64,000 nt of DNA from Megasphaera paucivorans. Lineage in GTDB: Bacteria > Bacillota > Negativicutes > Veillonellales > Megasphaeraceae. Of this stretch, positions 28,701-48,113 are shown piece by piece; the first letter of the stretch is position 1, and each line of letters begins with the position of its first letter. The stretch spans positions 1 to 64,000 of the forward strand of contig NZ_FNHQ01000009.1 of NCBI RefSeq assembly GCF_900103535.1, written 5' to 3'. The notes beneath the pieces are model-generated. The model made no database searches and was not told the origin of the DNA. It was given only the letters and a program-made list of their open reading frames with translations. Both the position numbers and the translations under genes were made by a program.

Positions 28701-28729
28701 AGAGCAGGGCAAACGCCCTGCTCTTTTTC
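28701..28729 (+). terminator. Terminator of the XRE regulator
   Basis: A 10-bp perfect stem, AGAGCAGGGC with GCCCTGCTCT around AAAC, is followed by TTTTC on the plus strand, 14 bp beyond the regulator stop. It also closes the gap to the last T4SS gene, which converges from the minus strand. Confidence 0.85.
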
Positions 28730-29468
28730 ATTCTCCATACTGCATAAAACCAAGGCTTTTCGTCTGCGCTACCCGTTTTTGCATATCATATTCGTTTGGA
28801 TGATAGGGATCATAACCATAAAACTCCCCAGCTCTAGCTTTTTCTCTCTCTATGCGATTGGCCGTAAATTCAGCTTCTTGCATAGTCACTTGCTTCATAA
28901 ATTCCGAACCCTTGACCTCTGCCTGATCAATACTCTCTAAAGCTCCCAAAACTTCTGTCGCATTCTTTTTTTGCTGTTCTCCTAAAATACCGTCTGTTTT
29001 TGTTTGTAAAACCTCTTCTTGCGCATTTTTTCTAAGCTGCTGATTTTGAAAAGCTTTTTGTGCAGCATTGGCCGCATCCTGATTCGCATTTTCCAAGCTG
29101 GTATAGAGAAGAATTTCATACGCTTCATTATTGTCCGCTTTTTCTTTGATCTCCCGAAAAGCTGCACCCAGCTCTGCTGCACTTTTTCCTGTTGGCATAT
29201 CGCCAACTCCCTGCACAGCCTTGAAAGCACTTTGCAAGTCAGAATTCAGACCCGTAATCATCAAGATTCTGTTATTGAGATTTTCCAACGTGTTCTGCAC
29301 CGCAACAATAGCCTGTTCTGTTTCCTTTACACTGTCGGCAAAGCGCTTGGCATCAAAGACATACGATCCCGGATATAAAAGATCTCCCCACCATGCCTGT
29401 GCAATCATAGAAGATCCACTAAGTACTGCCAAAGTGAAAACAACAACAGCGGTTTTACGAATTTTCAT
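28728..29468 (-). CDS. TrbJ/VirB5-like conjugal transfer protein (second copy)
   Basis: A 246-residue exported protein with a signal peptide (MKIRKTAVVVFTLAVLSGSS...AQA) and mostly helical, Gln/Glu/Lys-rich sequence. It has the VirB5/TrbJ style of starting with W-G-D-x-x-x-P-G-S-Y-V-F-D and long amphipathic helices. VirB5 proteins sit at the pilus tip and help contact recipients. It overlaps the TraF-like peptidase by 14 bp and is the last gene of the T4SS operon. A second, distinct VirB5-like protein is encoded at 32940-33725. Confidence 0.6.
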   Translation of the reverse strand: MKIRKTAVVVFTLAVLSGSSMIAQAWWGDLLYPGSYVFDAKRFADSVKETEQAIVAVQNTLENLNNRILMITGLNSDLQSAFKAVQGVGDMPTGKSAAELGAAFREIKEKADNNEAYEILLYTSLENANQDAANAAQKAFQNQQLRKNAQEEVLQTKTDGILGEQQKKNATEVLGALESIDQAEVKGSEFMKQVTMQEAEFTANRIEREKARAGEFYGYDPYHPNEYDMQKRVAQTKSLGFMQYGE

Positions 29469-29997
29469 TTGGTATCACCTGCTTTATAAAACAAGTAAAT
29501 GGTTCATAGGGCAGCACCAGATTTACTTTCTTTACAATCAAAGTTTTGGGAATCGGGCCCAAATACCGGGAATCAAAGGACAGCTCCACATCGTTTAACA
29601 ATAGCATTTCATCTTCTGGCACTTTCCGTTCTCCAACTGCTAATTCTGGCAAGCCATCCTGATGAAAAATCTTATACTCTTCCCCTCTAATCTCTAAAGA
29701 ATCATTAAAAATCGTATATTCATCGTCCGGAAATCCCCGAACTTGCTTTAACAGCAAAAAGCCTTTTTCTACATGAAGCTTTGGCACATCTACCGGGAGC
29801 GATACAATGACATAATCTCCATAGTGCAGCTTCTGGCTAAAAGACACCATGTAAATTCCCTTTGGCGCAGAATCCGTATCATTGATATAAAATAGTTTTC
29901 CGACAAGCATATTTGCCAAAGCTATAAAACCAATTGCCAAAAACGTACATACCACGAAAATTTTAAGTTTTTTCTGCCTACCTTTAAGAAAGTTCAT
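29455..29997 (-). CDS. TraF-type signal peptidase (S26 family), pilin maturation
   Basis: A 180-residue inner-membrane protease with one N-terminal helix. The catalytic serine is in SAPKGIYMV (about residue 42) and the catalytic lysine in LLLKQVRGFPDD (about residue 82), the order of TraF proteins of RP4-type systems, which cleave and cyclise the TrbC pilin. GGGAGG lies 5 bp before the ATG at 29997. Its start overlaps the 3' end of the large hydrolase-VirB6 gene. With the VirB2/TrbC protein at 36614 it indicates a cyclic-pilin P-type system. Confidence 0.85.
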   Translation of the reverse strand: MNFLKGRQKKLKIFVVCTFLAIGFIALANMLVGKLFYINDTDSAPKGIYMVSFSQKLHYGDYVIVSLPVDVPKLHVEKGFLLLKQVRGFPDDEYTIFNDSLEIRGEEYKIFHQDGLPELAVGERKVPEDEMLLLNDVELSFDSRYLGPIPKTLIVKKVNLVLPYEPFTCFIKQVIPNENS

Positions 29998-31792
29998 AAC
30001 GACCTCCCAAGGCATTCATAATGGACTTCGGCACTCGGAAAGTTAATATCGCTAAACCAATTAAAGATAAACAAAGCAGCACATATTTTGACATAGCTTC
30101 TGCCGTAATTCCGTTATTTACAGTATAGGTTCCTGATAAGTTCCGATTGACTTGATTCACATAATCCTGCGCCCATCCGGGAAGTGGTTCATTCTTTGAA
30201 AGACTATTCGGGCCGCCGTTATAGGCTGCCAAGGCATAGTTCCAATCACCAAATTGCTCATAGAGTCCCTGCATATATTTTGCCGAAGCTTCTAAATTCT
30301 GTTCCGGATTAAAGGGATCATAACAACCAAGCCCGGCTGCGGTAGAAGGCATGAGCTGTCCTAGCCCTTCGGCACCAACTTCACTAACAGCCTGCGGATT
30401 CCAGCTACTTTCTGCCTGAATCTGTGCCAAGAAAAGCGTAACGGGAATGTTATATTTTTGTGCTTTTTCTGTAGCTATGCTCACTAAGTCTGCCGGTCCG
30501 GAAACGCTGCCTGATCCAGTCTGTGTGACTGCCGGTGTTTTCATGGTAAAAAGATCCTGCGGCTTGGCATCCTTGATGCAAAAAACGCAAAGCCCAACCA
30601 TCACGGACAAAATCATGAGCTTTATGGTTGTAGATACCAGATGTCCCAGACTACCTTCCGCCACGAATTTCGTAAAACCTAAAGCTGCAAAGGGCCCCGT
30701 GCAAAGCGCCACGGAAGCAGAAAGATAAAATTCGATATATACAAGCATGATATAGCAGGACAAAAAGAAAAATACGCCCATCGTCAAAAAGGTAATAAGA
30801 TAAATCGGCAGGATCGTTCCAAAATTCCGGACAAAATCCATCGAACCAAACGATGCAATTTTATTAAGTCCTGGCGTAATCATATACACGCATTTTTGCA
30901 TCAAAAGCTGTGGCTGTGACACATTATTGGCAATTACCGTTGGATCTTGGATAAAGGTTCCCGATACCGAACTGACAAAGCTCAGAAAAAAATTGTTGAT
31001 AATATTTTGCCAGTTGGTAAAAATCAAGAACAAAAATCCATATTTAAAGGCTTTCGTAATCACTTGATTTAGTGAAGTTTCAAGCCCAGCAACAAGGATT
31101 GGTAGCGTCAAATCAATGACCGCCAAAACAAATAACAGAGCCAGTCCTGCCGTCTGCAGACCGCTATACCCTTTGGATAAAGCCTTCACCATTTGTTCCA
31201 TCAGTTGATTTAAAGAATCGCCCAGCTGATACATGGCTTCTACGCCCCAAGGCAGCGAAAGATTGTCGCTTCCTCGTTGTCCGGTCCCCGGATTTACACT
31301 TCCATCACCGCTAAGATTGACGCCCAGCGCTAAAAGTCTGGAATATGGATCAATTACGGGCCCCGTATAATAACCAGACGGCCAATATTCTATATGGCAA
31401 TGCGCCCCGGTCGATGTGCCAAGATCTCCATCATAAGCATCGCCGCCGGTATAACCAATGACAGTACCTTCGGATGTGCTTCCATCCAGACAAATCAAGG
31501 TATCTGGATTGCAATCGCCAAAAAGAAGGGATTCTCCATTTTCTCCGGTAATCAGTACCCAATAAATAAAACCATTGCCTGCGCCATGTTCGACAGTGCC
31601 ATTAAACGGTGCCAAGATAGGTGTTCCAGACGAAGTTCCGATATCGATTCCTTTATGTGTATGCCCCATATGATTTTCTTCACCAAAAGGAGCCGTTACT
31701 TCGCCGCCACTAAACGGCGCTGCCGCAAAGACTGAAGCTATATTGATGCACAACAATATACTAATTAGCATACAAAGTCGTTTTATCCTCAT
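29984..31792 (-). CDS. Trimodular protein: M23 endopeptidase, VirB6/TrbL membrane core, SLT lytic transglycosylase
   Basis: The 602-residue protein begins with a signal sequence (to about residue 23). An M23/LytM domain follows (about 28-150), with zinc ligands in HTHKGIDIG and GAHCHIEYW. Residues about 190-400 contain five or six transmembrane helices of VirB6/TrbL type (LLFVLAVIDLTLPILVAGLE). Residues about 435-560 form a transglycosylase SLT domain with catalytic Glu in QAESSWNPQ and the downstream GLGQLMPSTA and LAAYNGGP motifs. A last helix (about 578-595) anchors the C-terminus. It couples peptidoglycan opening to the translocation channel and replaces a separate VirB1. Confidence 0.85.
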   Translation of the reverse strand: MRIKRLCMLISILLCINIASVFAAAPFSGGEVTAPFGEENHMGHTHKGIDIGTSSGTPILAPFNGTVEHGAGNGFIYWVLITGENGESLLFGDCNPDTLICLDGSTSEGTVIGYTGGDAYDGDLGTSTGAHCHIEYWPSGYYTGPVIDPYSRLLALGVNLSGDGSVNPGTGQRGSDNLSLPWGVEAMYQLGDSLNQLMEQMVKALSKGYSGLQTAGLALLFVLAVIDLTLPILVAGLETSLNQVITKAFKYGFLFLIFTNWQNIINNFFLSFVSSVSGTFIQDPTVIANNVSQPQLLMQKCVYMITPGLNKIASFGSMDFVRNFGTILPIYLITFLTMGVFFFLSCYIMLVYIEFYLSASVALCTGPFAALGFTKFVAEGSLGHLVSTTIKLMILSVMVGLCVFCIKDAKPQDLFTMKTPAVTQTGSGSVSGPADLVSIATEKAQKYNIPVTLFLAQIQAESSWNPQAVSEVGAEGLGQLMPSTAAGLGCYDPFNPEQNLEASAKYMQGLYEQFGDWNYALAAYNGGPNSLSKNEPLPGWAQDYVNQVNRNLSGTYTVNNGITAEAMSKYVLLCLSLIGLAILTFRVPKSIMNALGGRYELS

Positions 31793-31801
31793 AAGAACAC
31801 C

Positions 31802-32935
31802 TTACTTCTTGCCATAGTCATTGCGATTTCGCTGTGGTTCTTCAAAAGCTTTGCCGGACCGAATGTTTTTATAGTCTTCATGATGGTTAATAGCGTTATT
31901 TGCACCGTGCATCAAAGATCTGCCAATTGTGCTGTTGGCGAATTTTTGCCGCATCATGGTTTTGGCAAAGTTGCCAGAAAGAGATCCACCATGATCTGCC
32001 TGACTGGTTCGAGCTGCATTCATGGTCGCTCTTGCGTTACCATACGTAGACGCCGCTTTTGTTACCGCACCGCCTACGCCGCCACTCACTGCAGCAACGG
32101 CAGCAGTGCCGACAGATCTTGCCCCACCAATCGCAGTTCCAGCATCCATAGAAGGCTGCCCATTCATCATACTGGCTGCCAGATTGGGAAGCTGCCAAGT
32201 AAGAAAAGCCATAGCGGCATAAGATAAGGACATGCGAAGCATCGTTGCAAAAGATTCCGTTGCCGGAATTGCTTTTACATCTCCAGCCAGCGAATTAAAT
32301 AATCCCAGCAGAAAATACATCACCATCAGTTTTATGCCAAAGCTGAAAACGGCAGATACGACTCGTTGAAACAAAAAGGACGTATAGCGAATGGCTCCAA
32401 AAGGCAATAAAATCACGCCAATAGAAGCAAACACATTAAATTCAATCTTTGTTAGCAGAATCTGCAGTGTAATAAAAAAGAAAGCGCCTAATGTAATGAC
32501 CGTAGACAGTAAGTACATAAAGCATTTTCCAAGCCCACCATTACTCATAATGCTTGTCTCATTAAACGCTTTTAATAGACCGCCAACAACCTCAAAGCCT
32601 TGTTCTAACACTTTACTCGGTGCCATCCAATCCCCTGATGGTGCCACTCCGGCAGCCGTTAATCCGGCATACTGAAAGGAAACTAAGATAGCTGAATTGA
32701 TTTTATCCCATTGCAAAATGAGGAAAAGAAAAAAGCCTACCTTCATCACCCGGCTAATCACAGCAGACATCCGAAGTTCTGCGCTATAAAGCGCCCATGT
32801 CGTACAAATATCAATTACGGCTAAAACAGAAACGAGCTGCCACGCATAGGGCTGCAAAGCTAAGAAACCCGTAATGCTGTGCAGCTCAAAAAACTTCAGT
32901 AATTCCGTCAAAAAGTCACTGCTTGAAAAATCCAT
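31802..32935 (-). CDS. VirB6/TrbL-like polytopic T4SS protein
   Basis: A 377-residue inner-membrane protein with six to seven hydrophobic helices in the first 260 residues (WQLVSVLAVIDICTTWALYS, FFFITLQILLTKIEFNVFAS), then an Ala/Gly-rich, charged cytoplasmic tail (GGVGGAVTKAASTYGNARAT) typical of TrbL. It forms part of the inner-membrane translocation pore. It is 9 bp upstream of the trimodular protein and shares the A-V-I-D-x-x-x-x-W/L membrane pattern with it, so two VirB6-like proteins are encoded side by side, perhaps by duplication. Confidence 0.8.
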   Translation of the reverse strand: MDFSSSDFLTELLKFFELHSITGFLALQPYAWQLVSVLAVIDICTTWALYSAELRMSAVISRVMKVGFFLFLILQWDKINSAILVSFQYAGLTAAGVAPSGDWMAPSKVLEQGFEVVGGLLKAFNETSIMSNGGLGKCFMYLLSTVITLGAFFFITLQILLTKIEFNVFASIGVILLPFGAIRYTSFLFQRVVSAVFSFGIKLMVMYFLLGLFNSLAGDVKAIPATESFATMLRMSLSYAAMAFLTWQLPNLAASMMNGQPSMDAGTAIGGARSVGTAAVAAVSGGVGGAVTKAASTYGNARATMNAARTSQADHGGSLSGNFAKTMMRQKFANSTIGRSLMHGANNAINHHEDYKNIRSGKAFEEPQRNRNDYGKK

Positions 32936-32939
32936 GCAT

Positions 32940-33725
32940 TCACCACCTTACATTGCCATACGTTTGCCATGGATCATCAAGTGCAGGTACAGTTTTCGTT
33001 ACTTCCTGTTTCATTTTTGTAAGTGCTGCATCTTCTGCTTGTATCGCAGCATTTACAACGGCTTGATGATTCTGCTTTTCTAGCACCTCCGCCTGATTTT
33101 TCATTACCTGATTTTGTGCCGTTAATGCTTGAAGTGTTGTATGAATACTATCTATATGTGCTTTTTCTGCCGCAATTTCGTTGGCAAGCTGCTGCACCTG
33201 TTTGCTGCCTGTTGGCGCTTTATTTTGCTCCAAAAGATCCGACAGGCGCTTTTTAGATACATCCAGCTCCGTCATGAGCTGATGGTATGCCGTTACGTCA
33301 TCCCGATTTCGCATGGATAAAACTTCTTGCAAAGTCGTTTTCACATTTTGCTCAGCCAAAGAAGTTTGCGCATAGGCATCTACTGCGATCTTAGGAAATG
33401 TATTTTGCCAATATTGATTCCATGCAGCAGTTTCCGTAAAAAAGCCAGACTTTTTCATGGCTGTATTGATAGAGGCCACGCTGCTATTCAAAGCATCTTT
33501 GTAACGATCTAAAACCGTTTCCGGAAGTGCCTCCAGCTCTTTTAATTGCAGGGTAATTTGCTGAGTTGTATTTGTCACCACCTGAAGTGTTTCGGTATAG
33601 GTTTTTATCTGCTGCAGAATATTTTCCGTATCAATGACCGGAATAGACGCATGTGCTGTCATGGGCAATACCAACAAAAAGATCCCAACAAGTCCCATCG
33701 TAAAGTTTTTACGAACATCCACCAT
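32940..33725 (-). CDS. TrbJ/VirB5-like conjugal transfer protein
   Basis: A 261-residue exported protein with a signal peptide (MTMGLVGIFLLVLPMTAHA-like; cleavage after residue 26). The start of the mature part, IPVIDTENILQQIKTYTETL, is the classical TrbJ N-terminus, followed by long coiled-coil helices to about residue 240. It is predicted to be periplasmic and part of the pilus base or tip. The gene directly follows the triple palindrome region 33748-33843, and GGAGAGGGGG lies in front of the ATG. Confidence 0.8.
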   Translation of the reverse strand: MVDVRKNFTMGLVGIFLLVLPMTAHASIPVIDTENILQQIKTYTETLQVVTNTTQQITLQLKELEALPETVLDRYKDALNSSVASINTAMKKSGFFTETAAWNQYWQNTFPKIAVDAYAQTSLAEQNVKTTLQEVLSMRNRDDVTAYHQLMTELDVSKKRLSDLLEQNKAPTGSKQVQQLANEIAAEKAHIDSIHTTLQALTAQNQVMKNQAEVLEKQNHQAVVNAAIQAEDAALTKMKQEVTKTVPALDDPWQTYGNVRW

Positions 33726-33845: not shown

Positions 33846-36335
33846 TTACGCCTTTTGCAAATAGCAATCCCGATAATCCCGCCATTCTTCTGCATAGCCT
33901 TTATATTCGAACCATCTTTGGATAAAGTTCTCCCGGCCATGCTCTGCTAAGATCCGATTCATGGCCTGCTGATCCTGCTTGGCGGTGGCTGTAACAAACG
34001 GAATTTCTGCAGGCTGCAACGCCAGTCGAAAAATACGATTTCCTTTTTCTGAGGAATAGTAATAATCTTGCTTTGGTGTCATGCTGGCAATGATATCGAT
34101 CTGCTTGTCGTTGCAGTCAAAAACCTTATAGAGTTCCCTGTTTTGCGCAGTTCTGGCATTCTTATTTGCCAGATAAATCCTATTCGGGCAGTTATCCATA
34201 ACTGTATTTAAAAGCTCTGGCTTATTGGCTAAATCCGAAAGATTTTGTGTTGCAAAAATGATTGAGGTATTCTTTTTCCGCATATCCTTGAAATACTCCC
34301 GAAGCTTTTGTTTAAAAGCTTCATTGTCAAAAAACAACCAACTTTCATCCAACAGAATCATGGATGGCCCGACTGCCTCTTTTAGCTGGGCTTCAATTCG
34401 GTGAAACAAATAATCCAGCGTTGCTGGCACTATGGCAGGTGTGCTCATGAGCGTTTCCATTTCATACACCTGCCAACGCCCTTTGCCAGAAACATCCTTG
34501 GTATTATCAAAAAGCTTACCGTAGCTTCCTTTCATAGTAAGAGGAAGTAATGCCTGCCGAATTTCCTGATCTTGTACCATTTCGCAAAAGGTAGAGATGG
34601 AACGCTGTTCTTCTGGAAATTCTTTTAATGAGCGGAGTGCTTTCCACACAAAATTGTCTTTGGCCGGAGTAATCTCTATATTTTTTTGCTTTAAATACGT
34701 CAAGATCCACTCTTTCGCCCATTTGATTTCCTGTTCATCATCGATTCGTGCCAATGGCTGAAAAGATAACTCTCCTTCGCTTTCAGCAGCAATGTTATAG
34801 AAATTACCACCAACGGCCAAGGTCAGCGCTCGGCTGGAGGCTGCTTTATCAAAGATGAAGACATTGCTCTCTGGATATTTCAAAAAATGCGCTTCCAAGG
34901 TATTCAGCAGTACAGACTTTCCGCTGCCGGAAGGTCCACAAATTAGCGTGTGCCCTACATCGCCTACGTGAAGAGATAACCGAAACGGTGTAAATCCATT
35001 CGTATCCGTATAGAGCAGCACAGGCCCCTTTAAGTATTCATTCCTTCTGTCTCCAGGCCATATCGATGTGACCGGGGCAAGGTGACAAAAATTTAAGCTG
35101 TTGACGATGGGACGGCGGATATTCGCCCGGTAGCAGCCCGGAATCGAGCCCCACCATGCTTCCATGCTATTATCCGTTTCGATATATCCGCAATAGCCTA
35201 GAGAATTTACAGCTTCTAGTATTCTGTTTGCTTTATCTGTACAACGATCTTTGTTAGTATCAGAAACCATCATTGTCATGGTGTAATAGCCGTAACTTAC
35301 AGCATCTTGCCCCAGTTCCTGCATGGCAACACTGACATCGTCTTTATTCATAACTGCTGTTTCATCAATGGCATCATTGAGCTTTTCCTTTAAAACCGCC
35401 TCCCGAACCTGCGTCCAAAAGCTCTTAATCTGCTGATTCCAGCGCATTAAGAAGTTCTTCAGTTCTTCCATAGCATCCATTTTGGATAAGCAAATATAGC
35501 GAGATACCCAGCGATATTCAATGTCCATGTTGTTGAATACATCAAAAACACCCGGTGTAGACATTGGTGGAAAATCTAAGATGCTAACAAGCTTAATGTG
35601 TTTTTCCCCAAGCTTCATTTCTCTGCCACCAAGCACATCCGTATCACAAATGTAATCTGTGATGTATTTATCATGATTTACTTTCACCGGGAACCGTTTA
35701 TCTGAAATATTAGAGTGCAAATAGCTGAGTGCTCCTGATGCATCGAGCGGCTTAATATCCGGGAACCAATTCTGCAGCATATTTCCAATGAGATTTACGT
35801 TGCTGATAAACTTTTCAACGGTTTCGCAATACACCCGCATATCGGCCTTATTCTGTCCTTTGTTTTTGGCATCGGCAATAAACGCATCTGTAATACGTGA
35901 CTTTAAAAGTTGCGGTGGTTCACAGTAAACGATGAAGTAATAACTGGTTTCAAAGTGCTTCTGACCGGCATAATAACCGGCTCTTTCATCCTCCATTTTT
36001 TGCACAATGGGAATATCGATCTTTGCCGCATTATACTTACTGGCAAGATGACGCTGGGCCTCAAAATATAGGACATAGCCTGTTGGCAGAGTTTTGATAA
36101 CGTTATTAACAGCAGCGTTATACTGCATGAGCTCTAGCGGTGTAGAGCTGTCCATATCTGGTCCGCGAAACTCATAAACGGCCATCATGGAATGATCTTT
36201 TCCATGAACGATTCCTGTTTTCTCATCCACAAAAGCCCACGGCAAAAGATAGGGAAGCCGTGCTTTTTCATGAAAAACACCGACTTGTTGTGAAAATTTT
36301 GCTGTGATTTTTTTCTTTAAAAATGACAACAACAC
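33846..36335 (-). CDS. VirB4/TrbE-type T4SS ATPase
   Basis: A 829-residue ATPase. The N-terminal CagE/TrbE-like domain (about 20-400) is followed by the AAA+ domain with Walker A GPSGSGKSVLLNTL (about residue 470) and Walker B MILLDESWLFFDN (about 660). It also has the family's late motif FATQNLSDLANK. It energises pilus assembly and substrate transfer at the inner membrane. It lies 12 bp after the virB3-like gene and before the palindrome cluster. Confidence 0.93.
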   Translation of the reverse strand: MLLSFLKKKITAKFSQQVGVFHEKARLPYLLPWAFVDEKTGIVHGKDHSMMAVYEFRGPDMDSSTPLELMQYNAAVNNVIKTLPTGYVLYFEAQRHLASKYNAAKIDIPIVQKMEDERAGYYAGQKHFETSYYFIVYCEPPQLLKSRITDAFIADAKNKGQNKADMRVYCETVEKFISNVNLIGNMLQNWFPDIKPLDASGALSYLHSNISDKRFPVKVNHDKYITDYICDTDVLGGREMKLGEKHIKLVSILDFPPMSTPGVFDVFNNMDIEYRWVSRYICLSKMDAMEELKNFLMRWNQQIKSFWTQVREAVLKEKLNDAIDETAVMNKDDVSVAMQELGQDAVSYGYYTMTMMVSDTNKDRCTDKANRILEAVNSLGYCGYIETDNSMEAWWGSIPGCYRANIRRPIVNSLNFCHLAPVTSIWPGDRRNEYLKGPVLLYTDTNGFTPFRLSLHVGDVGHTLICGPSGSGKSVLLNTLEAHFLKYPESNVFIFDKAASSRALTLAVGGNFYNIAAESEGELSFQPLARIDDEQEIKWAKEWILTYLKQKNIEITPAKDNFVWKALRSLKEFPEEQRSISTFCEMVQDQEIRQALLPLTMKGSYGKLFDNTKDVSGKGRWQVYEMETLMSTPAIVPATLDYLFHRIEAQLKEAVGPSMILLDESWLFFDNEAFKQKLREYFKDMRKKNTSIIFATQNLSDLANKPELLNTVMDNCPNRIYLANKNARTAQNRELYKVFDCNDKQIDIIASMTPKQDYYYSSEKGNRIFRLALQPAEIPFVTATAKQDQQAMNRILAEHGRENFIQRWFEYKGYAEEWRDYRDCYLQKA

Positions 36336-36347
36336 GCTTCACCTCCT

Positions 36348-36617
36348 TTAGCGATAATAATAAGATTTATGACCTTTTCCCTGCCAAAACACCTGATGGA
36401 ACTGCGGGTCCTGCTGCCCCAAATGGCGGAATAAATAATGGGCTGCTACTGCCACAAAAAGTACGGTCCATGTTTTCATGAAGATCCCGCCTAATACAGC
36501 AAACAAGATTTCTGCGATAAACAAGTTCCGGGGTACCCCCATCCAGTACAATGGCTTTACCAAGGAGCGATGAATCGGAATTTCATACCCTTCCGGCAAT
36601 TCTTCTTTTTGACTCAT
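36348..36617 (-). CDS. VirB3/TrbD-like T4SS protein
   Basis: An 89-residue protein with the VirB3 pattern: a polar N-terminus with PIHRSLVKPLYWMGVPR, then two close hydrophobic helices (LFIAEILFAVLGGIFM and WTVLFVAVAAHYLFRHLG) and a basic tail. It works with VirB4 in the inner membrane. Its ATG at 36617 overlaps the TGA of the virB2-like gene (ATGA) and has GGAG 7 bp upstream. Confidence 0.88.
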   Translation of the reverse strand: MSQKEELPEGYEIPIHRSLVKPLYWMGVPRNLFIAEILFAVLGGIFMKTWTVLFVAVAAHYLFRHLGQQDPQFHQVFWQGKGHKSYYYR

Positions 36618-37000
36618 GGCGTAACTCCTGCAATAGTAAGCCCACCTGCCGAAGTCTGCAGATAGGTCATAAAGTTTGGTGCAAACAGGCAAATAGAAAC
36701 TGCTAAAATAAGCACAATAAACTTCTGGGTTCCGCCTCCGGCATGACCAGAAAAAAGCGCTATAGCAGCTCCGGCAATTCCCATGGCTCCCAAAGTCATC
36801 GGCAAAGGTCCTGTCAATTGATCCGCTAGCGAATTAAAAAATTTCATCCAAGGCCAAGTAATACCTTCGACACGATCACCACTGACCGTACTGGCAAAGG
36901 CCTTGGTGGATAGGCTGCTCAAAAATAACGTAGCAGCTATAGACTTTTCCAATGTTTTGTTCCTGATTTTTTCAAACAAACGATTTTTCTTTAGATTCAT
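36614..37000 (-). CDS. VirB2/TrbC-like pilin subunit
   Basis: A 128-residue pilin precursor with a long N-terminal leader (NLKKNRLFEKIRNKTLEKSI ... SSLSTKAFA), then two hydrophobic helices separated by a short loop (LTGPLPMTLGAMGIAGAAIALF-like and FIVLILAVSICLFAPNFMTY). It is probably trimmed and cyclised by the TraF-like peptidase. The start at 37000 is supported by GAGGAGG 9 bp upstream; the preceding virB11-like stop lies within that site. Confidence 0.87.
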   Translation of the reverse strand: MNLKKNRLFEKIRNKTLEKSIAATLFLSSLSTKAFASTVSGDRVEGITWPWMKFFNSLADQLTGPLPMTLGAMGIAGAAIALFSGHAGGGTQKFIVLILAVSICLFAPNFMTYLQTSAGGLTIAGVTP

Positions 37001-37014
37001 AGGAAATCGCCTCC

Positions 37015-37995
37015 TCAATTCTTCTCTACATGATGCAAAATATATTGATCTTTCAAACTGTCATACGCCTTAACTTCAATGATGTCATGGACTACCCGGC
37101 TTTTCTTGCCGTCACCAAGTTCCACATGCGAAATGAAGATTACTACATCAATGGCTTCCCCAATGAGCTCTTTTATGTCTCCTGCCGCATCCGAATCTTC
37201 CTGCGCTAATGACTTAATGCGCGTCAGCCCTTCTTCGGCACCATTGGCATGTACAGTACAAACACCGCCTTCATGGCCCGTATTCCAAGCTTTGAGCATG
37301 GTATAGGCCGCACCATCGCGAACCTCTCCGACAACAATCCGGTCTGGGGAGCGGCGCATGCAATCGGCTAAAAGGCGCGTCATGTTATATTTGATCCCGC
37401 CTTGTCCGGTATCTTGTTTAGTAAACATCGGACTATAATCGTCTGCAGGGCATTGCAGTTCTGGTAAATCTTCCAGACTAATAATCCGATGATACGGGGA
37501 TATTTGAGCAATGGCTGCTAAGATGGCATTAAGAAAGGTTGTCTTTCCGGTTCCTGTACCACCGACAATTAAGATATTCTTTCTTCCGGTGATGGCTTTT
37601 TCAATATAATTTTTATAACTCTGGCACAGCACGTTATTTACAACATAGTCCTCCAGATAAAAGATTTTCAGGGCCTTTTTCCGGATATTCATCTGCGGGT
37701 TGCGCACAATTGGCGGAATTTCGCCTTGAAATCTTGCTCCATAACCTGCAATTTCTGCAGAAATCGAGGGAATGTCTTCATTGACAATTTTGCCGACCTG
37801 ACCGGCAACTAGTTCAATAATGGCCTGAATCTTTTCCGGTTCCAAAAATATATTGGATTTTACTTTTCCCTCCTCATTTGACTGATAGCGAATAAAACCA
37901 TCGTCATTGTTATAAATTTCCGTAATGTCAGGCCGCTTCATCAGATCTACCACAGCAGCGCCTAGCATGACATCTAGATTTTTATTCTCCACCAT
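37015..37995 (-). CDS. VirB11/TrbB-type T4SS ATPase
   Basis: The 326-residue protein contains Walker A GGTGTGKTTFLNA (about 143-155), an Asp box (ISLEDLPELQC), Walker B-like RIVVGEVRDGAAY, and the His box CTVHANGAEEGLTR. This is the hexameric traffic ATPase that switches the channel between pilus assembly and DNA transfer. It overlaps the small TraD-like gene by 14 bp and precedes the pilin gene by 14 bp. Confidence 0.94.
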   Translation of the reverse strand: MVENKNLDVMLGAAVVDLMKRPDITEIYNNDDGFIRYQSNEEGKVKSNIFLEPEKIQAIIELVAGQVGKIVNEDIPSISAEIAGYGARFQGEIPPIVRNPQMNIRKKALKIFYLEDYVVNNVLCQSYKNYIEKAITGRKNILIVGGTGTGKTTFLNAILAAIAQISPYHRIISLEDLPELQCPADDYSPMFTKQDTGQGGIKYNMTRLLADCMRRSPDRIVVGEVRDGAAYTMLKAWNTGHEGGVCTVHANGAEEGLTRIKSLAQEDSDAAGDIKELIGEAIDVVIFISHVELGDGKKSRVVHDIIEVKAYDSLKDQYILHHVEKN

Positions 37996-38383: not shown

Positions 38384-40699
38384 TCATGGCTCTTGATATT
38401 CATAAGAAAAGTCCTTGGCTTTTTCCTTTTGGCGTTTTTCTTCGGCTGTAGCTGCCAATAAACGATCTCGCTCTGGATATGGATTATCCCTAATGAGATC
38501 ACTAGCTACGGGAGCAGCTACTAGTTTTTTTAAGAAAAAACCATTTTCATAATACTTGACCTTATCCGTCAGCACCGGCGGACTACCACTTGCCACAATG
38601 ATTTCCCGATCCCCAAGACGCTTAATTTCATCTGCCGTCATAAGCGCTCTGGCCGTTTCTGACTTTGAATAATTCTTATTCGAAAACCAGCCGCTACTTG
38701 AAACACTTTCCACGGTAATAGTTTTATTGCCAAGAAGTGACTCCGTATATTTTCCGGTATCGTTATCATTTGGTGCATAAAAAATCTGCAAATGACAGTT
38801 CATCAAAATCTGATTGTCTTTCCCGTAAATCCCGTTAATCTGTGGCAATCCCTGATTGATCAAAAATACCTTCATACCATAACCGGCAATATAGGAAAGC
38901 GTTGCGGCAAAGGACTGCAAATTTCCCAAGGATGAGAATTCATCCATCAAAAAGAGGCATTTATGCTTATACAAGGTTTTGGCTTGTCCGTTTTCATAGG
39001 TACCGATTTTCTTGGCATGATGCTTTACCATCATTTCAAAAAACAAGCGGAAAATTGGGGCCAGCCTCAAAAGATCAGAAGGTGGCGTTACCAAGTAAAG
39101 GGATACTGGATTTTTGTAATTCATAAGGTCATCGATACAGAAATCGCTGACCGATGTGTTCTTTGCAAGTGTCGGATCAAGATATTCCTTCAGTGCTGTA
39201 TTTGCTGTGGAAACAATGCTGCCGCACTCATTATCTGGTTTTGACAGGATCTCCACAAAGTTCTGGTAAATGATTGGATGGACGTTTGGCATGTAGTCCA
39301 ATGACATTGCATCTGGATAAAGATCCTTCATATCTTCTGGCGTAAAATGCCGTTTCACATACGATTCACTACCTTTATCCCACTCCACCAGCTCAATGCC
39401 TTCATCCGGAACATGATCAAAGGTCTGCAGCGCTTTCAGTGTATCTAAAAATCCCTTTGCATTTACTTTTTGTACCAACTGCCCGTCCAAATTTTCCATG
39501 ACCGGATTGCCGTCTTGATCAAATTCTGGAACGATATTCGCTTTCATAAAAGCGGCCACCGTATAAAGGTTCGGCACATGCGGATAATGCTCTGGATCAC
39601 CATAATGCGCATACATCAAGTGCAAAATAACAACTGTGATCACTGTTGCAGCATTGGCTCCCCAATGATCAAGACTTGCTTTTCCTTCGTAATTTGCCAA
39701 GATATACGCCAAGTTCTGTGCTGCCGGAACTTCAGCTGCCGTTCCAATCGGAATTTCCTCTAATGGATTCCACCGGGCAGAGCTTCCGTCCAGGGCTGTT
39801 GGTTCAAACTTGATAACCGTATGCCCCATTCGCTTTCGATACCCTGCTGTAACACCCCAGTTTTCACTTTTAATGTCATTGACGATGACACTTGACCTCC
39901 AACCGCCAAGGAGTGTCGGAATAATCAGCCCTACGCCCTTACCAGAACGTGTTGGCGCGATGACCGCCAAGTGTTTATTGGAATTATCCCGCAGGTAAAA
40001 ATGCGGACAGGAAATATAGAACTGCAGCAGTTTTTTGTATAGGCATACCCAAGGATATACCGTATAAAAGTCATATTTTTGTGGCTCATATTTCGGTGGA
40101 TGCTCGATCTTATGTTGCAAGCCCCGCAGCCGTTTTTCTAGCTGCTGCCTCGATACAGTTGCATCTCCCGGTATTTCTTCCAATTCACTCTGCACGATAA
40201 CCAATTGATTGCTTATGCGATCCATCTTTTTATCTAATCGCTTATCAAAATCCATCTCAGCAAAAGAAACTTTCTCCTGCTTAATTTTTTCTACCGAACG
40301 AAGAAGGTCCGTAAACTTTCGCGTAAGTGCATTATCATAGAGCCCTACGACTACGCCACTAGCTGAAATCAGATCCATGCCTAAAATATCCTTGTACTCC
40401 CCCCAATACGCACTGCCATGAGAATCTAAGCGTCGCGGTGGCTGCAAAACAAATAAGAATAGAAGCCCGACAAGAAATCCCCCATAAATATATACATAGG
40501 TTTGTTTGAATAAATCTGGTATATAGGAATGGAAATGTTGAAACCAGCTGAAATATTTCCATGGATAATAGTAAAACTGCCCATTCATTTGAAATGGCGT
40601 TCCGAGTAGAGGATCATACTGCACCAGTGCAGCCAGTTTTTGTGTCGCTGTCCACAAACCAGCAAAGGCTGGCATGAAAAAGAAAAATACCCTAATCAC
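38384..40699 (-). CDS. VirD4/TraG-type coupling protein
   Basis: A 771-residue protein with two N-terminal helices (residues 4-20 and 65-85). The ATPase domain has Walker A APTRSGKGVGLIIPTLL (about 248-264), Walker B KCLFLMDEFSSLG (about 555-567), and the arginine-finger-like FLINQGLPQI region. It delivers the relaxase-DNA complex to the T4SS. The GTG at 40699 has AGGAG 7 bp upstream and overlaps the virB10-like stop. Confidence 0.94.
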   Translation of the reverse strand: MIRVFFFFMPAFAGLWTATQKLAALVQYDPLLGTPFQMNGQFYYYPWKYFSWFQHFHSYIPDLFKQTYVYIYGGFLVGLLFLFVLQPPRRLDSHGSAYWGEYKDILGMDLISASGVVVGLYDNALTRKFTDLLRSVEKIKQEKVSFAEMDFDKRLDKKMDRISNQLVIVQSELEEIPGDATVSRQQLEKRLRGLQHKIEHPPKYEPQKYDFYTVYPWVCLYKKLLQFYISCPHFYLRDNSNKHLAVIAPTRSGKGVGLIIPTLLGGWRSSVIVNDIKSENWGVTAGYRKRMGHTVIKFEPTALDGSSARWNPLEEIPIGTAAEVPAAQNLAYILANYEGKASLDHWGANAATVITVVILHLMYAHYGDPEHYPHVPNLYTVAAFMKANIVPEFDQDGNPVMENLDGQLVQKVNAKGFLDTLKALQTFDHVPDEGIELVEWDKGSESYVKRHFTPEDMKDLYPDAMSLDYMPNVHPIIYQNFVEILSKPDNECGSIVSTANTALKEYLDPTLAKNTSVSDFCIDDLMNYKNPVSLYLVTPPSDLLRLAPIFRLFFEMMVKHHAKKIGTYENGQAKTLYKHKCLFLMDEFSSLGNLQSFAATLSYIAGYGMKVFLINQGLPQINGIYGKDNQILMNCHLQIFYAPNDNDTGKYTESLLGNKTITVESVSSSGWFSNKNYSKSETARALMTADEIKRLGDREIIVASGSPPVLTDKVKYYENGFFLKKLVAAPVASDLIRDNPYPERDRLLAATAEEKRQKEKAKDFSYEYQEP

Positions 40700-41999
40700 G
40701 GTATGCTCCTATCGCTAAATCCTGATTGACGAAAACACTAAACTGAAAACCCGGTTCAATCTCAATTGTCGGATTCACATTGGCATCCTTATCCATCAGC
40801 TTTTGCCCTGTTTGAAGGATAGATGCAACCGCTCCGGAAACAGCTTCTTGCCCAGGACTTCGACTATCACTGCCGGAGGTATTTCCTGTTAAACTTTGCG
40901 CTGCTGCGCTAAGGAGTGTACTGAAAAAGGCAGTTTGATACAACTTACCTCGATGCTCATTGTATTTATCCATCAAACCCGGATAACCGGTACCGTCAAT
41001 TGCCTGTTGATTGGGAAGCGTAAGTGATGCACCATTAGGTAAAATAATACGTTTAAAAACCACACTAATTCTCTGATTACCAAGACCGCCAGCAACACCC
41101 GTTGTCCCAATAATCCGACTGCCCTGAGGAATCAATAAATGCGTTCCAGTAAGGCTGTCGTAAATATTTTGCCGAACCTGCGCTACAACATCACCATTTG
41201 GGACATCACTTGTTACACCCGTGAGAAGCGTTGCCTGAATCACTGCCCCGGCATTTAAAACATAACTTCCTGTGTCTTGCGGTTCATCATCGGAAAAGGA
41301 GTACGCAGTTGGTATCGCTTGTATTTTTGATGTACCTGCCACTGCTGTAGAAATTGGTGTAACTTCTGGCGTTTGCCCTTGCGAAACAGCTGCTGCAATT
41401 TTGAAAGCCAATGCACTGCTATTAATAGCCGGTTGTACTTTTGCTGCTTTTTCCTCTTCCGCTGCTGCATTGTCCCGGTAACTACTATTCGAGGATGCTG
41501 CTACAGGCGTTGTTGGAACATATGTTACTGCGGCTGGTCGACTGGTTGCTGTACTGGCTGGTTGATATGAATTCTGCGCTCTATTTGGTGAATTTGTCAC
41601 CTGCCCACCTTGTCCCCCATTGCTATTCAGGTCATTCCCTTTATTTTTCTGATACTTACCGATCTCTGAATACTTATCTGGAAGCTGCTCTGCCGGTGTT
41701 GCGGCAGTTGCAACACTTTGACTAGAAAGCGGTTTATCCGCTTTCTCTTTTGTCCCGAAAAACGTATTGCTGGCAGCTGCCGTGATCGCACAAAGAAGGA
41801 CGGCTCCACCCGTGACCATAATGGCTTTTTTCTTTAAGGTTTTCGCCCGACTTTCCGGATCATCGTCATCCGAAAAATCTATTTCACCACTCTCCCCTAT
41901 CTCTTTTTCTGCCTTTTCATCAAGTGTTTCAGTTTCCTCTTCTTCAAAATCTTCATCCCGCTTTTTATGAAACAGGCCTTTCACCTTGTCAAAAATCAC
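40692..41999 (-). CDS. VirB10/TrbI-type T4SS protein
   Basis: A 435-residue protein with a highly acidic cytoplasmic N-terminus (DEDFEEEETETLDEKAEKEI), one helix (about 58-76) and a long low-complexity Ala/Pro/Ser linker. The C-terminal TrbI/VirB10 beta-barrel domain begins at about 240 (LNAGAVIQATLLTGVTSDVP ... LLIPQGSRIIGT). It spans from the inner to the outer membrane and gates the channel, implying a diderm host. GTG start overlapping the virB9-like stop. Confidence 0.92.
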   Translation of the reverse strand: MIFDKVKGLFHKKRDEDFEEEETETLDEKAEKEIGESGEIDFSDDDDPESRAKTLKKKAIMVTGGAVLLCAITAAASNTFFGTKEKADKPLSSQSVATAATPAEQLPDKYSEIGKYQKNKGNDLNSNGGQGGQVTNSPNRAQNSYQPASTATSRPAAVTYVPTTPVAASSNSSYRDNAAAEEEKAAKVQPAINSSALAFKIAAAVSQGQTPEVTPISTAVAGTSKIQAIPTAYSFSDDEPQDTGSYVLNAGAVIQATLLTGVTSDVPNGDVVAQVRQNIYDSLTGTHLLIPQGSRIIGTTGVAGGLGNQRISVVFKRIILPNGASLTLPNQQAIDGTGYPGLMDKYNEHRGKLYQTAFFSTLLSAAAQSLTGNTSGSDSRSPGQEAVSGAVASILQTGQKLMDKDANVNPTIEIEPGFQFSVFVNQDLAIGAYRD

Positions 42000-42844
42000 T
42001 GTGCATCACCACCCGCTGAAATTTTTGGCAGACTAGATTCTTCTTTTTTCGGATAAATATCTACATAAACATTGGCCGAATAATACAGTCTGGCATGCGT
42101 AAACACACGATCTGCAATGAAATAGGCCCCATGAATCCGGTAATTTACGAGGGTCAGTTTCTCTTTGTCGGTGCTTTCGATATTGTAAAGGACCGGCAGA
42201 TCATACTTATTGGACTTTGGCATCCGAATATAGGTCCGTGTTCCATCATCAAAAACCTTGCGTGGAAATAAAGCTGCATCCGCTTTTTTGCTGCCCTTGG
42301 TTTCATAGGAATAGTTCATTGTTTTAGCTACATAACGCCCATCAACTTTTTCTGTGAAAATATCTAGAAATTCTTTTTCTTCGCGATTTTGATAAACTTC
42401 CGCATTTGCCAGTTTTCGATACATTTCTTCTGGATAGTCCCATGAAATGACGGGATTATATGTATCCGCTGATGATACCGCTAAACGATAAGAACGCTTA
42501 TCCGTATTGATGATAAAATTTGTGCCAATATCCGCAAACTTTGGTTTTACATAAACATGAACGGTACTATCTACACTAGCCGTCTCAATGTTCCAGCGCT
42601 CTGTATCTCCGGCTAAGACCCCCACTAACTTTTCATTCGGATGCAAAGAAATATCCGTCACGTGTCCAAGCTGTACATATACTTGATACACACTGCCCTC
42701 GTTATAGTCATACATCAGTTTAGATGCAGAAACATAGGCATCTTCTGTTGTGTAAAAGGCTTTTTGCTCAGCAAGGGCAATCAGGCTGGATGAATACATC
42801 GAAACCGCTACAGCTACCGCGATAAAAATTTTACGATGGTTCAA
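41996..42844 (-). CDS. VirB9/TrbG-type T4SS protein
   Basis: A 282-residue secreted protein with a signal sequence (FIAVAVAVSMYSSSLIALAE). The N-terminal beta domain has the VirB9 signature YNEGSVYQVYVQLGHVTDIS, then LHPNEKLVGVLAGD. The C-terminal domain shows YxPxxVFDDGTxTYIxMP (FPRKVFDDGTRTYIRMPKSN). It builds the outer-membrane core with VirB10. The TTG at 42844 has AAGGAG 8 bp upstream and is preferred over the GTG at 42853, which overlaps that site. Confidence 0.92.
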   Translation of the reverse strand: MNHRKIFIAVAVAVSMYSSSLIALAEQKAFYTTEDAYVSASKLMYDYNEGSVYQVYVQLGHVTDISLHPNEKLVGVLAGDTERWNIETASVDSTVHVYVKPKFADIGTNFIINTDKRSYRLAVSSADTYNPVISWDYPEEMYRKLANAEVYQNREEKEFLDIFTEKVDGRYVAKTMNYSYETKGSKKADAALFPRKVFDDGTRTYIRMPKSNKYDLPVLYNIESTDKEKLTLVNYRIHGAYFIADRVFTHARLYYSANVYVDIYPKKEESSLPKISAGGDAQ

Positions 42845-42849
42845 AGCGA

Positions 42850-43554
42850 TCACTCCTTGCTTTCATTTTCTTTACTTATGGCTAAATCCTTAATTTTCAG
42901 GCCCAACGGATTAATGAGTAATTCTTCTTCTTTGCTCTGCGGTTCAATAGCAACAGAAAAGAGTGCGACATAGCTGACTTTTTTTCCCGTTATATTGCCG
43001 CTAATGGCGTATTCTTCTTCTACCCAGCGAACTTGATATGTTGAATTTGATCCCGGCTGCAATTGAATCGAACGGATCTGCGGCTGCACCGTCATGCGAC
43101 CAAGGAGCCCCACCGGATTATCTTTTGATACGATTGCATTTATTTTCTGTGCCGCTTCCTGCGTCATAAAATGCCGGGAGCGATTCCAATTGTTTTTATA
43201 TTGGACCGGATCGAGCGGAATCGTTCTTGTGTCAGCAATGAATTGCGCCAAAAAGGTTTTGATTTCGGCCTCCTGTGGTTTATAGTTGGTTGCCTTTAAT
43301 TGACCGCCAGTTTCTACCTGCCCCGTGGCATTGTCCACGCGAACGACATACGTCTTATAATTTGCTGTTGTCGCAATGAAAATAATGGAAAGCACACAGA
43401 TGATCAAAAGCACGAGATACAGCAAGTTCCTTTTTTTCGCCACATCTTTATCTAAGGCCAAATTATATAAGTCACTCTGAAATGTTCCTGCAGCTTTTCG
43501 GTCAAATACCTCTGTTGGTTCTCCTTTTGGGAAAAATTTAGTTTGCGGTTCCAT
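42850..43554 (-). CDS. VirB8/TrbF-type T4SS protein
   Basis: A 234-residue bitopic inner-membrane protein with a cytoplasmic N-terminus and one helix (about 45-65, LLYLVLLIICVLSIIFIATT). The periplasmic NTF2-like domain shows FIADTRTIPLDPVQYKNNWN, as in TrbF. It nucleates the inner-membrane complex. It is the first gene of the T4SS operon; ATG at 43554 with AGGAGG 8 bp upstream and a promoter at 43579-43607. Confidence 0.92.
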   Translation of the reverse strand: MEPQTKFFPKGEPTEVFDRKAAGTFQSDLYNLALDKDVAKKRNLLYLVLLIICVLSIIFIATTANYKTYVVRVDNATGQVETGGQLKATNYKPQEAEIKTFLAQFIADTRTIPLDPVQYKNNWNRSRHFMTQEAAQKINAIVSKDNPVGLLGRMTVQPQIRSIQLQPGSNSTYQVRWVEEEYAISGNITGKKVSYVALFSVAIEPQSKEEELLINPLGLKIKDLAISKENESKE

Positions 43555-43578
43555 ATATTCCACCTCCTTTACGGTGAA

Positions 43579-43940: not shown

Positions 43941-46016
43941 ATGGCCCATTACTATTTTGAAAATACACCTCATGGCACGCGAAAAAACGGCACCAAACTA
44001 AATACCAAAACCCATTACGACTATATCTTCCGCGAAAGCGAATATGCTCATATGGATAATCGCGAGGAAGATTTAGCTTTTACTTCTTATGGGAATATGC
44101 CGAGCTGGGCCGATCATCCGGGGATGTTTTGGGAAGAAGCAGAAGCCCACCGTGACAAGCCTGATGGCCGCGCTTATCGGGAATTTCGATTTGCCCTGCA
44201 AGAAGAATTTACCCTTGCTGAAAACATGGAAATTATTGAGCAACTTTTAAAAGAAACCGGCATCAAGGATCGCCATGCCTATTCCTATGCCATCCATGAT
44301 AAAACTGCCACCTTTGACAAGGAGCATCGAAACATTCACTGCCATCTGATGTTCAATGAAAAAATTATTGAACGCGACCGGCCACTTCCACCTGACAAAT
44401 TCTTCAATCATTATGCGGTCAATCGCTCTGGTGAACCAACGCAGGGTTATCGCTCATCTAGAGAATTCATTACCAAAGAAATGACGCTTCATTTACGTAA
44501 ACGCTGGGCTGAAATGGTTAATGAAAAGTTTCAAGAAAAAGGCCTTTCCACTTCTATCAGTGAAAAGACCTTACAGACCCAACGTGAAGAACTGGTTTTA
44601 TCTGGAAGAAATGAGGAGGCAGAACTTCTCAACCGAACTCCTGCCCCACACCTTGGCAGTGCTTACCGAAATCCAGTTGTGATGCAAAAAATTATGAATC
44701 AAATTGAGCAAATCGATCACGAATCAGATTTCCCTGAAACTAGTGAAGAAACAGACATATCTGCTCTTTCTTCCAAAGAGCAAAACGTCTTAATTTTTGC
44801 CAATGATGCTTTGCTCCGCCAAGTTGCCCGACAAATACAGCAAGAACGCCTACGTCTGCAAAAGGCTCAGGATATAGAAATAGCAAAGATTGAAGCAGCA
44901 GAAATCATGGAAGAACCGCTCATTATAACCATTGGCGATGTATATTCTTATCTCAAAGAAAAAGCCTCTAATTACCAAACACTAGCTGATGATAAATTAG
45001 CTGCCTATAAAGCCTTGAAACCACATATTCTTAACGATCAACAATTGCGACTTGCTACACAGGATAAGGCCTTGAATCATCAGTACGATAAAACACGCAA
45101 AGCCTATGCAAAAACGGCTAAGGAATTGCAACGTACAAAAGAGCTGGCTACTTCCCTTTATGGCATTCCTGATAAAACGCATGAACTGGCCGAATGCAGC
45201 AAAAAAATAAAGCTGCTTACCGAGGAACGCAATGTTCTTGGTAAACAACTCAATGCTTATCGCCGCGCTATTGATGGCGACGCCAAAGAAAAAATTAATG
45301 ATATTTTTAAAACGTTACAGCATGAAAATGCTGAAAAACAGCTTCAGAACAACCGGCTTTATGCCGAATATCTTTCTTTGAAAAAACAGACCGATAGATA
45401 TGCTGATGCTGCGAAAAAACTAAGCACGGAGAACATGGACATGGTACTTTTCACCGATAGGCTCCCGGCAACACTAAACCGCAAGTGTAAAATTGACGGT
45501 ATCCAGCCTATTTCTAAGCTCAAAATCTTGGTTTATAATGGTGATTCTTATGCCCTTTTAGCACAACTTCGGGCTCAAGAAAATATAGATAAGAGCATAG
45601 ATAATCGCTGTACAGTGACAGCCGTAAAGCTTGGTGATAATATAAGCCGTGGCACCGTTCCAAAATATGAAATTCAGGTGATGACGAACAACAACAATAA
45701 GTGGAAAATCCATAGTGCTTCTATTCCGATCAAAAATGATGCTACACCTGAAATTATCCGACTCTATACTCTTCATGAATCACGGCAGCAAAATGCAACT
45801 TTACAAAATAATTTAGTAAGGCATTCTCATCCTATTTTACAGACTGCCCGCAATGATCAGAAGCAGGCAATTTCATCTCATGTTGCTTCACTCGCTGAAA
45901 AGCTTATTTCAAAAGAAAAGGACATCCATTTGGACGCCCATTGGAATAATGAATCTGAAGTTAAAGACAAAACAAAAATTGCTGAAGAAAAAATGTATCA
46001 GGGATGGAGTTTATAA
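43941..46016 (+). CDS. MobA/MobL-family (MOBQ) relaxase
   Basis: A 691-residue protein. The N-terminal relaxase domain (about 1-220) contains an early Tyr (HYYFEN or THYDYIFRE), AYSYAIHDKTA and the metal-binding HxH motif EHRNIHCHLMFN. A coiled-coil region (about 290-480) and a C-terminal domain of unknown type follow (NGDSYALLAQLRAQE). It nicks oriT and pilots the strand through the T4SS. It is transcribed away from the T4SS operon, with GGAAAG 9 bp before the ATG. A similarity of the C-terminal part to a primase or helicase is not visible. Confidence 0.88.
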   Translation: MAHYYFENTPHGTRKNGTKLNTKTHYDYIFRESEYAHMDNREEDLAFTSYGNMPSWADHPGMFWEEAEAHRDKPDGRAYREFRFALQEEFTLAENMEIIEQLLKETGIKDRHAYSYAIHDKTATFDKEHRNIHCHLMFNEKIIERDRPLPPDKFFNHYAVNRSGEPTQGYRSSREFITKEMTLHLRKRWAEMVNEKFQEKGLSTSISEKTLQTQREELVLSGRNEEAELLNRTPAPHLGSAYRNPVVMQKIMNQIEQIDHESDFPETSEETDISALSSKEQNVLIFANDALLRQVARQIQQERLRLQKAQDIEIAKIEAAEIMEEPLIITIGDVYSYLKEKASNYQTLADDKLAAYKALKPHILNDQQLRLATQDKALNHQYDKTRKAYAKTAKELQRTKELATSLYGIPDKTHELAECSKKIKLLTEERNVLGKQLNAYRRAIDGDAKEKINDIFKTLQHENAEKQLQNNRLYAEYLSLKKQTDRYADAAKKLSTENMDMVLFTDRLPATLNRKCKIDGIQPISKLKILVYNGDSYALLAQLRAQENIDKSIDNRCTVTAVKLGDNISRGTVPKYEIQVMTNNNNKWKIHSASIPIKNDATPEIIRLYTLHESRQQNATLQNNLVRHSHPILQTARNDQKQAISSHVASLAEKLISKEKDIHLDAHWNNESEVKDKTKIAEEKMYQGWSL

Positions 46017-46900: not shown

Positions 46901-46902
46901 AT

Positions 46903-47991: not shown

Positions 47992-48007
47992 CCAAATCAC
48001 GCCTTTC

Positions 48008-48113
48008 ACCATTCCGGTGAAATAATTATATCAAGTGAAATTGTTTTTTGCAAGACAATTTCACCTATAAGTCTATTTTCACCATTGCGATGAAAATAGA
48101 CTTATAGGTGAAA
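48008..48113 (-). promoter_or_regulatory. Promoter and nested operators of the AbiE-like operon
   Basis: Minus-strand TTGCAA (48048-48053), 17 bp, TATAAT (48025-48030). Three inverted repeats built on TTTCACC/GGTGAAA surround it: one around 48004-48020 (TTTCACC-N5-GGTGAAA), one spanning 48034-48065, and a perfect 23-bp-arm repeat (48059-48081 with 48091-48113, 9-bp loop). AbiEi-type antitoxins bind such repeats to repress their own operon. Confidence 0.75.

Follow-up and report, generated by a model that had tools for sequence, protein, structure and literature searches.

How conjugation machines get through the peptidoglycan without causing lysis, and how their hydrolases are positioned, are questions that have been answered only loosely. 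VirB1 is a soluble enzyme and is often dispensable. A 2025 review treats it as a separate protein, describes R388 VirB6 as mostly periplasmic, and leaves the extra domains of 'extended VirB6' proteins without a known role (PMC12857230). In Agrobacterium and Brucella, the N-terminus of VirB6 has been reported to lie in the periplasm and its C-terminus in the cytosol (PMC6536674, PMC7648143).

Here we analyze a gene of Megasphaera paucivorans in which a VirB6 core is combined with two putative peptidoglycan hydrolases. The window (the whole stretch of DNA analyzed) covers 64,000 nucleotides at the start of contig NZ_FNHQ01000009.1. In the open-licence literature we found no description of a hydrolase-VirB6 fusion. 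The host belongs to the Negativicutes, which are diderm Firmicutes.

Gene neighbourhood and domain architecture

The fusion is encoded by one uninterrupted reading frame of 602 codons on the minus strand (Table 1). From N- to C-terminus the protein consists of a signal peptide, an M23 peptidase, a VirB6/TrbL core, an SLT lytic transglycosylase and a last helix. Pfam matches, each exceeding the curated cut-off, were obtained for SLT (residues 440-539, E 1.8e-26), TrbL/VirB6 (PF04610, residues 223-406, E 9.9e-12, 45.5 bits against a cut-off of 25.9) and Peptidase_M23 (residues 45-140, E 1.1e-8); the first of these delimits the SLT domain proper within a larger inserted block, with Glu461 as the catalytic residue. 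Hydropathy indicates hydrophobic segments at about 6-24 (the signal peptide), 217-235, 244-262 (weaker), 333-351 (possibly two), 388-406 and, lastly, 565-588. The single reading frame and the Pfam matches bear out the preliminary description, which had proposed exactly this combination of an M23 domain, VirB6/TrbL helices, an SLT domain with catalytic Glu and a final helix in one protein.

Table 1. Features of the fusion gene and its surroundings in the window.
Feature	Coordinates	Strand	Basis or remark
Hydrolase-VirB6 fusion gene, 602 aa	29984..31792	-	single ORF, domains, relatives
Predicted signal peptide, residues 1-23	31724..31792	-	hydropathy; A23 conserved (alignment A1)
M23 (LytM-type) peptidase domain, residues 25-157	31322..31720	-	Pfam; fold; residue survey
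VirB6/TrbL core, residues 185-415	30548..31240	-	Pfam; hhalign 99.5% to plain TrbL profile; R388 VirB6 fold
Inserted SLT (GH23) block, residues ~416-560	30113..30547	-	Pfam; SLT/MltF fold; boundaries from empty-site relatives
Last VirB6 helix and short basic C-terminal tail, residues 561-602	29987..30112	-	in all paralogues
Conserved helical partner protein	28728..29468	-	in 9/9 fusion loci aligned
TraF-type S26 signal peptidase, 32-nt overlap with fusion	29455..30015	-	Pfam/NCBIfam-type domain search
Plain TrbL/VirB6, first copy	31802..32935	-	Pfam (E 3.3e-25) and NCBIfam TrbL_P
TrbJ/VirB5-like	32940..33725	-	Pfam T4SS 7e-6; NCBIfam TrbJ_Ti 1.7e-6
TrbE/VirB4 ATPase	33846..36335	-	
TrbD/VirB3 and TrbC/VirB2	36348..37018	-	
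TrbB/VirB11 ATPase	37015..37995	-	
TraG/VirD4 coupling protein	38384..40699	-	
TrbI/VirB10, TrbG/VirB9, TrbF/VirB8	40692..43563	-	Pfam
MobA/MobL relaxase	43941..46016	+	Pfam; divergent from trb operon

The trb-type operon is complete and runs in the order TrbF, TrbG, TrbI, TraG, TrbB, TrbC, TrbD, TrbE, TrbJ, TrbL, fusion, TraF-type S26 peptidase and helical protein. With equivalents of VirB2-VirB6, VirB8-VirB11 and VirD4 as well as a relaxase, the system is of the MPF_T type. A search by sequence gave no useful solved-structure match for the plain TrbL. The helical protein encoded after traF carries an N-terminal motif (PGxxVxDxKRxADSVKETxQ) that resembles PVIDTENIxQQxKTYxET of TrbJ. Its hhalign probability against TrbJ is 36, and its model, of low confidence (pLDDT 51), matches TrwJ with Z 8.3 amid unrelated helical matches. 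Possibly it is a second VirB5 that is paired with the second VirB6.

Two further observations concern other parts of the window. Adjoining the relaxase gene, two minus-strand ORFs (46067-48012) look by eye like an AbiE-type nucleotidyltransferase/antitoxin pair, and an rlmD/rumA-like 23S rRNA methyltransferase gene (55046-56432, minus strand) is seemingly split over two frames near 56024, through a frameshift or a sequencing error.

Position of the SLT domain and membrane topology

To place the domains we compared an AlphaFold2 model of the fusion, built with the sequences of 10 relatives and of moderate confidence (pLDDT 66), with solved structures. R388 VirB6 (7o3v_G) matches the model at 187-596 over 244 residues with Z 12.9, a score that helical bundles can reach by chance, though here the sequence profile agrees. 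SLT enzymes match at 422-559, with Z reaching 17.1, and M23 enzymes at 23-156 (9gy1, Z 14.6). Since the VirB6 match brackets the SLT match, the modelled VirB6 fold opens before the SLT domain and closes after it.

Profiles and relatives lead to the same position. The profile match of the fusion to plain TrbL ends where the SLT domain starts (hhalign 99.5%); the match of relatives without an insert runs through the last helix, and via these proteins the last helix of the fusion is homologous to the last helix of plain TrbL. One relative (L062, in genome G150) presents an exact empty site: it reads ...SIVKDANPNEVFQ...IVAKHILMCINLIGLAL...GNLLGGSVEL where the window fusion has ...CIKDAKPQDLFT[SLT]...AMSKYVLLCLSLIGLAI...MNALGGRYELS. 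Judged from sequence and model, the SLT domain is an insertion in the VirB6 fold, in the loop that precedes the last helix. The alternative of a C-terminal add-on is rejected on the model-fold, profile and empty-site comparisons. The preliminary description was thus right that an SLT domain had been joined to the channel protein, but its placement has to be corrected: the domain is internal to the VirB6 fold and not attached at an end.

A periplasmic location accounts best for both hydrolase positions. The M23 domain is expected there because it comes after the signal peptide, and the SLT insert because a single helix separates it from the C-terminus, which is cytosolic in VirB6 and in the fusion has a basic tail. 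The nature of the enzymes that are exchanged in relatives points the same way. Hydropathy alone permits an extra helix near 355-373, which would flip the SLT domain. By homology, the fusion would have its N-terminus in the periplasm and its C-terminus in the cytosol, and would share the location and stoichiometry of the stalk pentamer.

Relatives, selection and exchange of domains

The preliminary description had suggested a survey of VirB6 homologues in Negativicutes for the same fusion. A VirB6-core profile was run over 380 Negativicutes genomes, matches were obtained in 57 of them and the ORFs were extracted. The fusion turned out to be widespread, with about fifty long or variant hydrolase-VirB6 copies (53 listed).

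Full-length relatives of the fusion occur in independent assemblies at 34-96% identity, among them Pectinatus haikarae (96%), Megasphaera cerevisiae (95%), Pectinatus frisingensis (90%) and Propionispira raffinosivorans (89%), and further Selenomonas artemidis, Megasphaera massiliensis, Veillonella sp. and a complete Megamonas funiformis plasmid. The gene has an equivalent position in about ten other Negativicutes elements: in the loci whose flanks were read it directly follows trbL and precedes traF. Against four close relatives dN/dS amounts to 0.00-0.12 in every domain (lowest in the SLT domain and the last helix), and all domains are under purifying selection. An artefact of assembly or annotation that fused separate genes is ruled out by the independent copies, the complete plasmid included, together with these ratios; we assign it a negligible probability, even though relatives without an insert exist. 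Homologues with the domains in separate genes had been put forward beforehand as a sign of such an artefact. Some relatives have no glycan-cleaving domain, but with the exact empty site they form an evolutionary series.

Some individual copies deserve mention. In Megasphaera sp. NM10 (L044, 7941-9769) an in-frame stop lies between the M23 domain and the remainder. Pectinatus, Propionispira and Megasphaera cerevisiae, all of beer-spoilage genera, share near-identical fusions (L038, L039, L040 and L043; 89-96%), which suggests, from sequence identity, recent transfer between Negativicutes families. A contig binned as Candidatus Atopostipes (Bacilli; L041) carries a Megamonas-type element almost unchanged and has probably been mis-binned.

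The N-terminal domain of the family is M23 in nearly all copies. One copy (L071) has an NlpC/P60-like domain instead (E 5.8e-4, just under the cut-off), and L057 has a domain that we leave unassigned. For the N-terminus of the latter protein (L012/L057, genome G059) an M15 peptidase was considered and rejected, the resemblance being merely motif-like and Pfam empty up to E 1; a PDB sequence search with this domain gave no relative. The slot before the last helix is more variable: it contains SLT, a second lysozyme-like domain that we call LT2 (motifs ETGG...GYGAYQI...WNGG), a glucosaminidase (PF01832 in L067, E 2.2e-9) or a phage-tail lysozyme (PF18013 in L096, E 2.1e-16), or it is empty (L028, L032, L033, L062 and L071). 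A PDB sequence search with LT2 gave no match, and its kinship to SLT rests on weak HMM cross-matches and motifs in common. Whatever the insert, a similar last hydrophobic helix follows the slot in every copy.

In a tree of the core only, the hydrolase-VirB6 proteins are separated from plain TrbL as a single group (support 100), and the distribution of insert types implies 6 changes or more; L081, for instance, has an SLT insert yet lies inside the LT2/glucosaminidase group. Another VirB6 is encoded on the same strand at most 5 kb upstream of 40 of the 53 copies, and several of the remaining copies are near contig ends. The earlier suggestion that the fusion is a duplicate of the adjacent TrbL therefore holds in the sense of a paralogue in a separate clade. 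On the plasmid of Selenomonas oral taxon 920 (L027, 4448-6362), HipA/HicB-like genes are located between TrbL and the hydrolase-VirB6 gene.

Outside the Negativicutes, 398 genomes drawn across the phylum yielded hydrolase-VirB6 solely in relatives of the family of the window. Among plasmids the combination of M23 and VirB6 was matched only in Negativicutes, and the viral contigs gave a single match, with SLT alone. Foldseek against viral proteins mainly returned phage LT and M23 proteins.

The 101.7-kb contig that holds the window has no SLT domain besides that of the fusion, and the two other SLT domains of the same genome are both on another contig. Among systems with readable surroundings, a separate SLT gene was found within about 30 kb on the contig for 0 of the 15 with an SLT insert against 16 of the 27 with a different insert or none (Fisher p 1.3e-4), which is to be read as a pattern and not as an independent test because the tally was made manually, from listed coordinates, and counts related systems (those with an SLT insert being one clade plus L081). 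The separate genes of these 16 are typically located 3-9 kb upstream; the nearest one to any SLT-insert system lies at 31 kb (in G003). Several LT2, glucosaminidase or no-insert systems likewise have no SLT gene nearby. This distribution would fit a fusion that replaces VirB1.

Proposed role and comparison with known systems

We consider it likely that the fusion serves a Negativicutes trb-type system as a specialised second VirB6, which mounts periplasmic M23 and SLT domains at the stalk and takes over the job of VirB1/TrbN. The VirB6 core would anchor the protein in the inner membrane, at or beside the conjugation stalk, and present both domains to the periplasm. There the SLT domain would cut glycan and the M23 domain, if active, peptide cross-links, opening the peptidoglycan only where stalk and pilus cross the wall. 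The fusion would thus stand in for a separate VirB1/TrbN, the ordinary upstream TrbL would retain the standard channel and pilus-platform job, and the two slots would tolerate the exchange of enzymes. With the hydrolase being part of a channel subunit, the architecture of the machine would set both where the enzyme sits and how much of it there is. Given that relatives swap wall-cutting domains in the same two places, the opening of the wall seems to be an integral function of the transfer machine.

How the labour is divided between the two domains is less certain. In the SLT domain Glu461 is invariant, and there is no defect in the motifs GLGQLMP and AYNGG. The M23 domain has the zinc motifs H46xxxD50 and H131xH133; of the 50 aligned M23 copies, all retain the ligands H46, D50 and H133, and 46 retain H131. 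LytM His260 belongs to the pair of histidines that lie close to the active water of M23 enzymes (PMC9662197, PMC5519744). Its position is taken by Asp93 in the window fusion, by Asp in 13 of the 14 distinct copies of the SLT group and by His in most non-SLT copies, so that loss of the residue tracks the insert type. Because of this replacement the M23 domain may be weak, altered, regulatory or non-catalytic. SLT may also be the sole working enzyme, and M23 a regulatory or peptidoglycan-binding module which positions or activates it, as has been proposed for the accessory domains of PrgK in pCF10. Besides the nearly general Asp of the SLT group, this reading is favoured by the faster evolution of M23 (dN/dS 0.07-0.12 against 0.00-0.045 for SLT), by the proposal that the accessory domains of PrgK (LytM and CHAP) are regulatory (PMC12857230) and by the observation that degenerate M23 folds often work via protein contacts (PMC9662197). 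Nonetheless, the zinc ligands are kept, and the N-terminal slot is once NlpC/P60-like, suggesting that peptidase chemistry is wanted; we put the chances of SLT acting alone somewhat short of even.

Other readings concern where the enzymes are placed and what they cut. The fusion and TrbL could form a mixed ring in one stalk, making the fusion a channel subunit that is interchangeable with TrbL and carries enzymes on a tether, and not a separate accessory complex. The core is kept full-length and encoded beside TrbL, in line with this idea, but has strongly diverged from it (22% identity in alignment A2; branch 0.94 either side of the root), and we hold a mixed ring to be conceivable rather than probable. 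That the hydrolases target the recipient wall or the mating contact instead of the donor's own wall is improbable: although one relative has a phage-tail-type lysozyme in the slot and there is a resemblance between the SLT domain and lytic tail proteins of phages, an inner-membrane subunit keeps the domains tethered (SLT at both ends) and VirB1-type enzymes work in the donor (PMC12857230). More speculatively, Negativicutes conjugation systems may possess a duplicated stalk module (second VirB6 and VirB5-like partner) that has become an exchangeable wall-cutting cassette, with two fixed slots for varying peptidases and glycan-cleaving enzymes, and that physically couples wall opening to channel assembly. 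Returning to the second VirB6 with mounted hydrolases that we prefer, the fact that enzymes were replaced repeatedly at the same site suggests that VirB6 has a general mount point, and the exchange amounts to an experiment of nature that matches hydrolases to walls.

Compared with known systems, the fusion resembles VirB6/TrbL (Agrobacterium VirB6, RP4 TrbL, R388 TrwI) in core sequence, fold and operon position (PF04610, 7o3v), but adds an N-terminal peptidase and a transglycosylase before the last helix and occurs as an additional copy next to a plain TrbL. PrgK, TraG(pIP501) and CwlT/Orf14 also unite two to three hydrolase domains (SLT or muramidase plus peptidase) in one membrane-anchored protein, and PrgK has a LytM domain like the LytM-type M23 of the fusion; these proteins are however without a VirB6 core and belong to a Gram-positive envelope. 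With 'extended VirB6' proteins (such as the Rickettsiales paralogues) the fusion shares a VirB6 core with large hydrophilic domains and adjacent paralogues, whereas its added domains are recognisable as peptidoglycan hydrolases, which offers a function for some members of that group. The SLT domain and the expected local opening of the wall are in common with VirB1/TrbN of diderm conjugation, but VirB1 is a soluble protein of its own in the periplasm and the SLT domain of the fusion sits within a polytopic VirB6. Summarizing, the fusion is in our reading a VirB6 that merges the role of VirB1, and the exchange of enzymes at a fixed site is its most unusual part.
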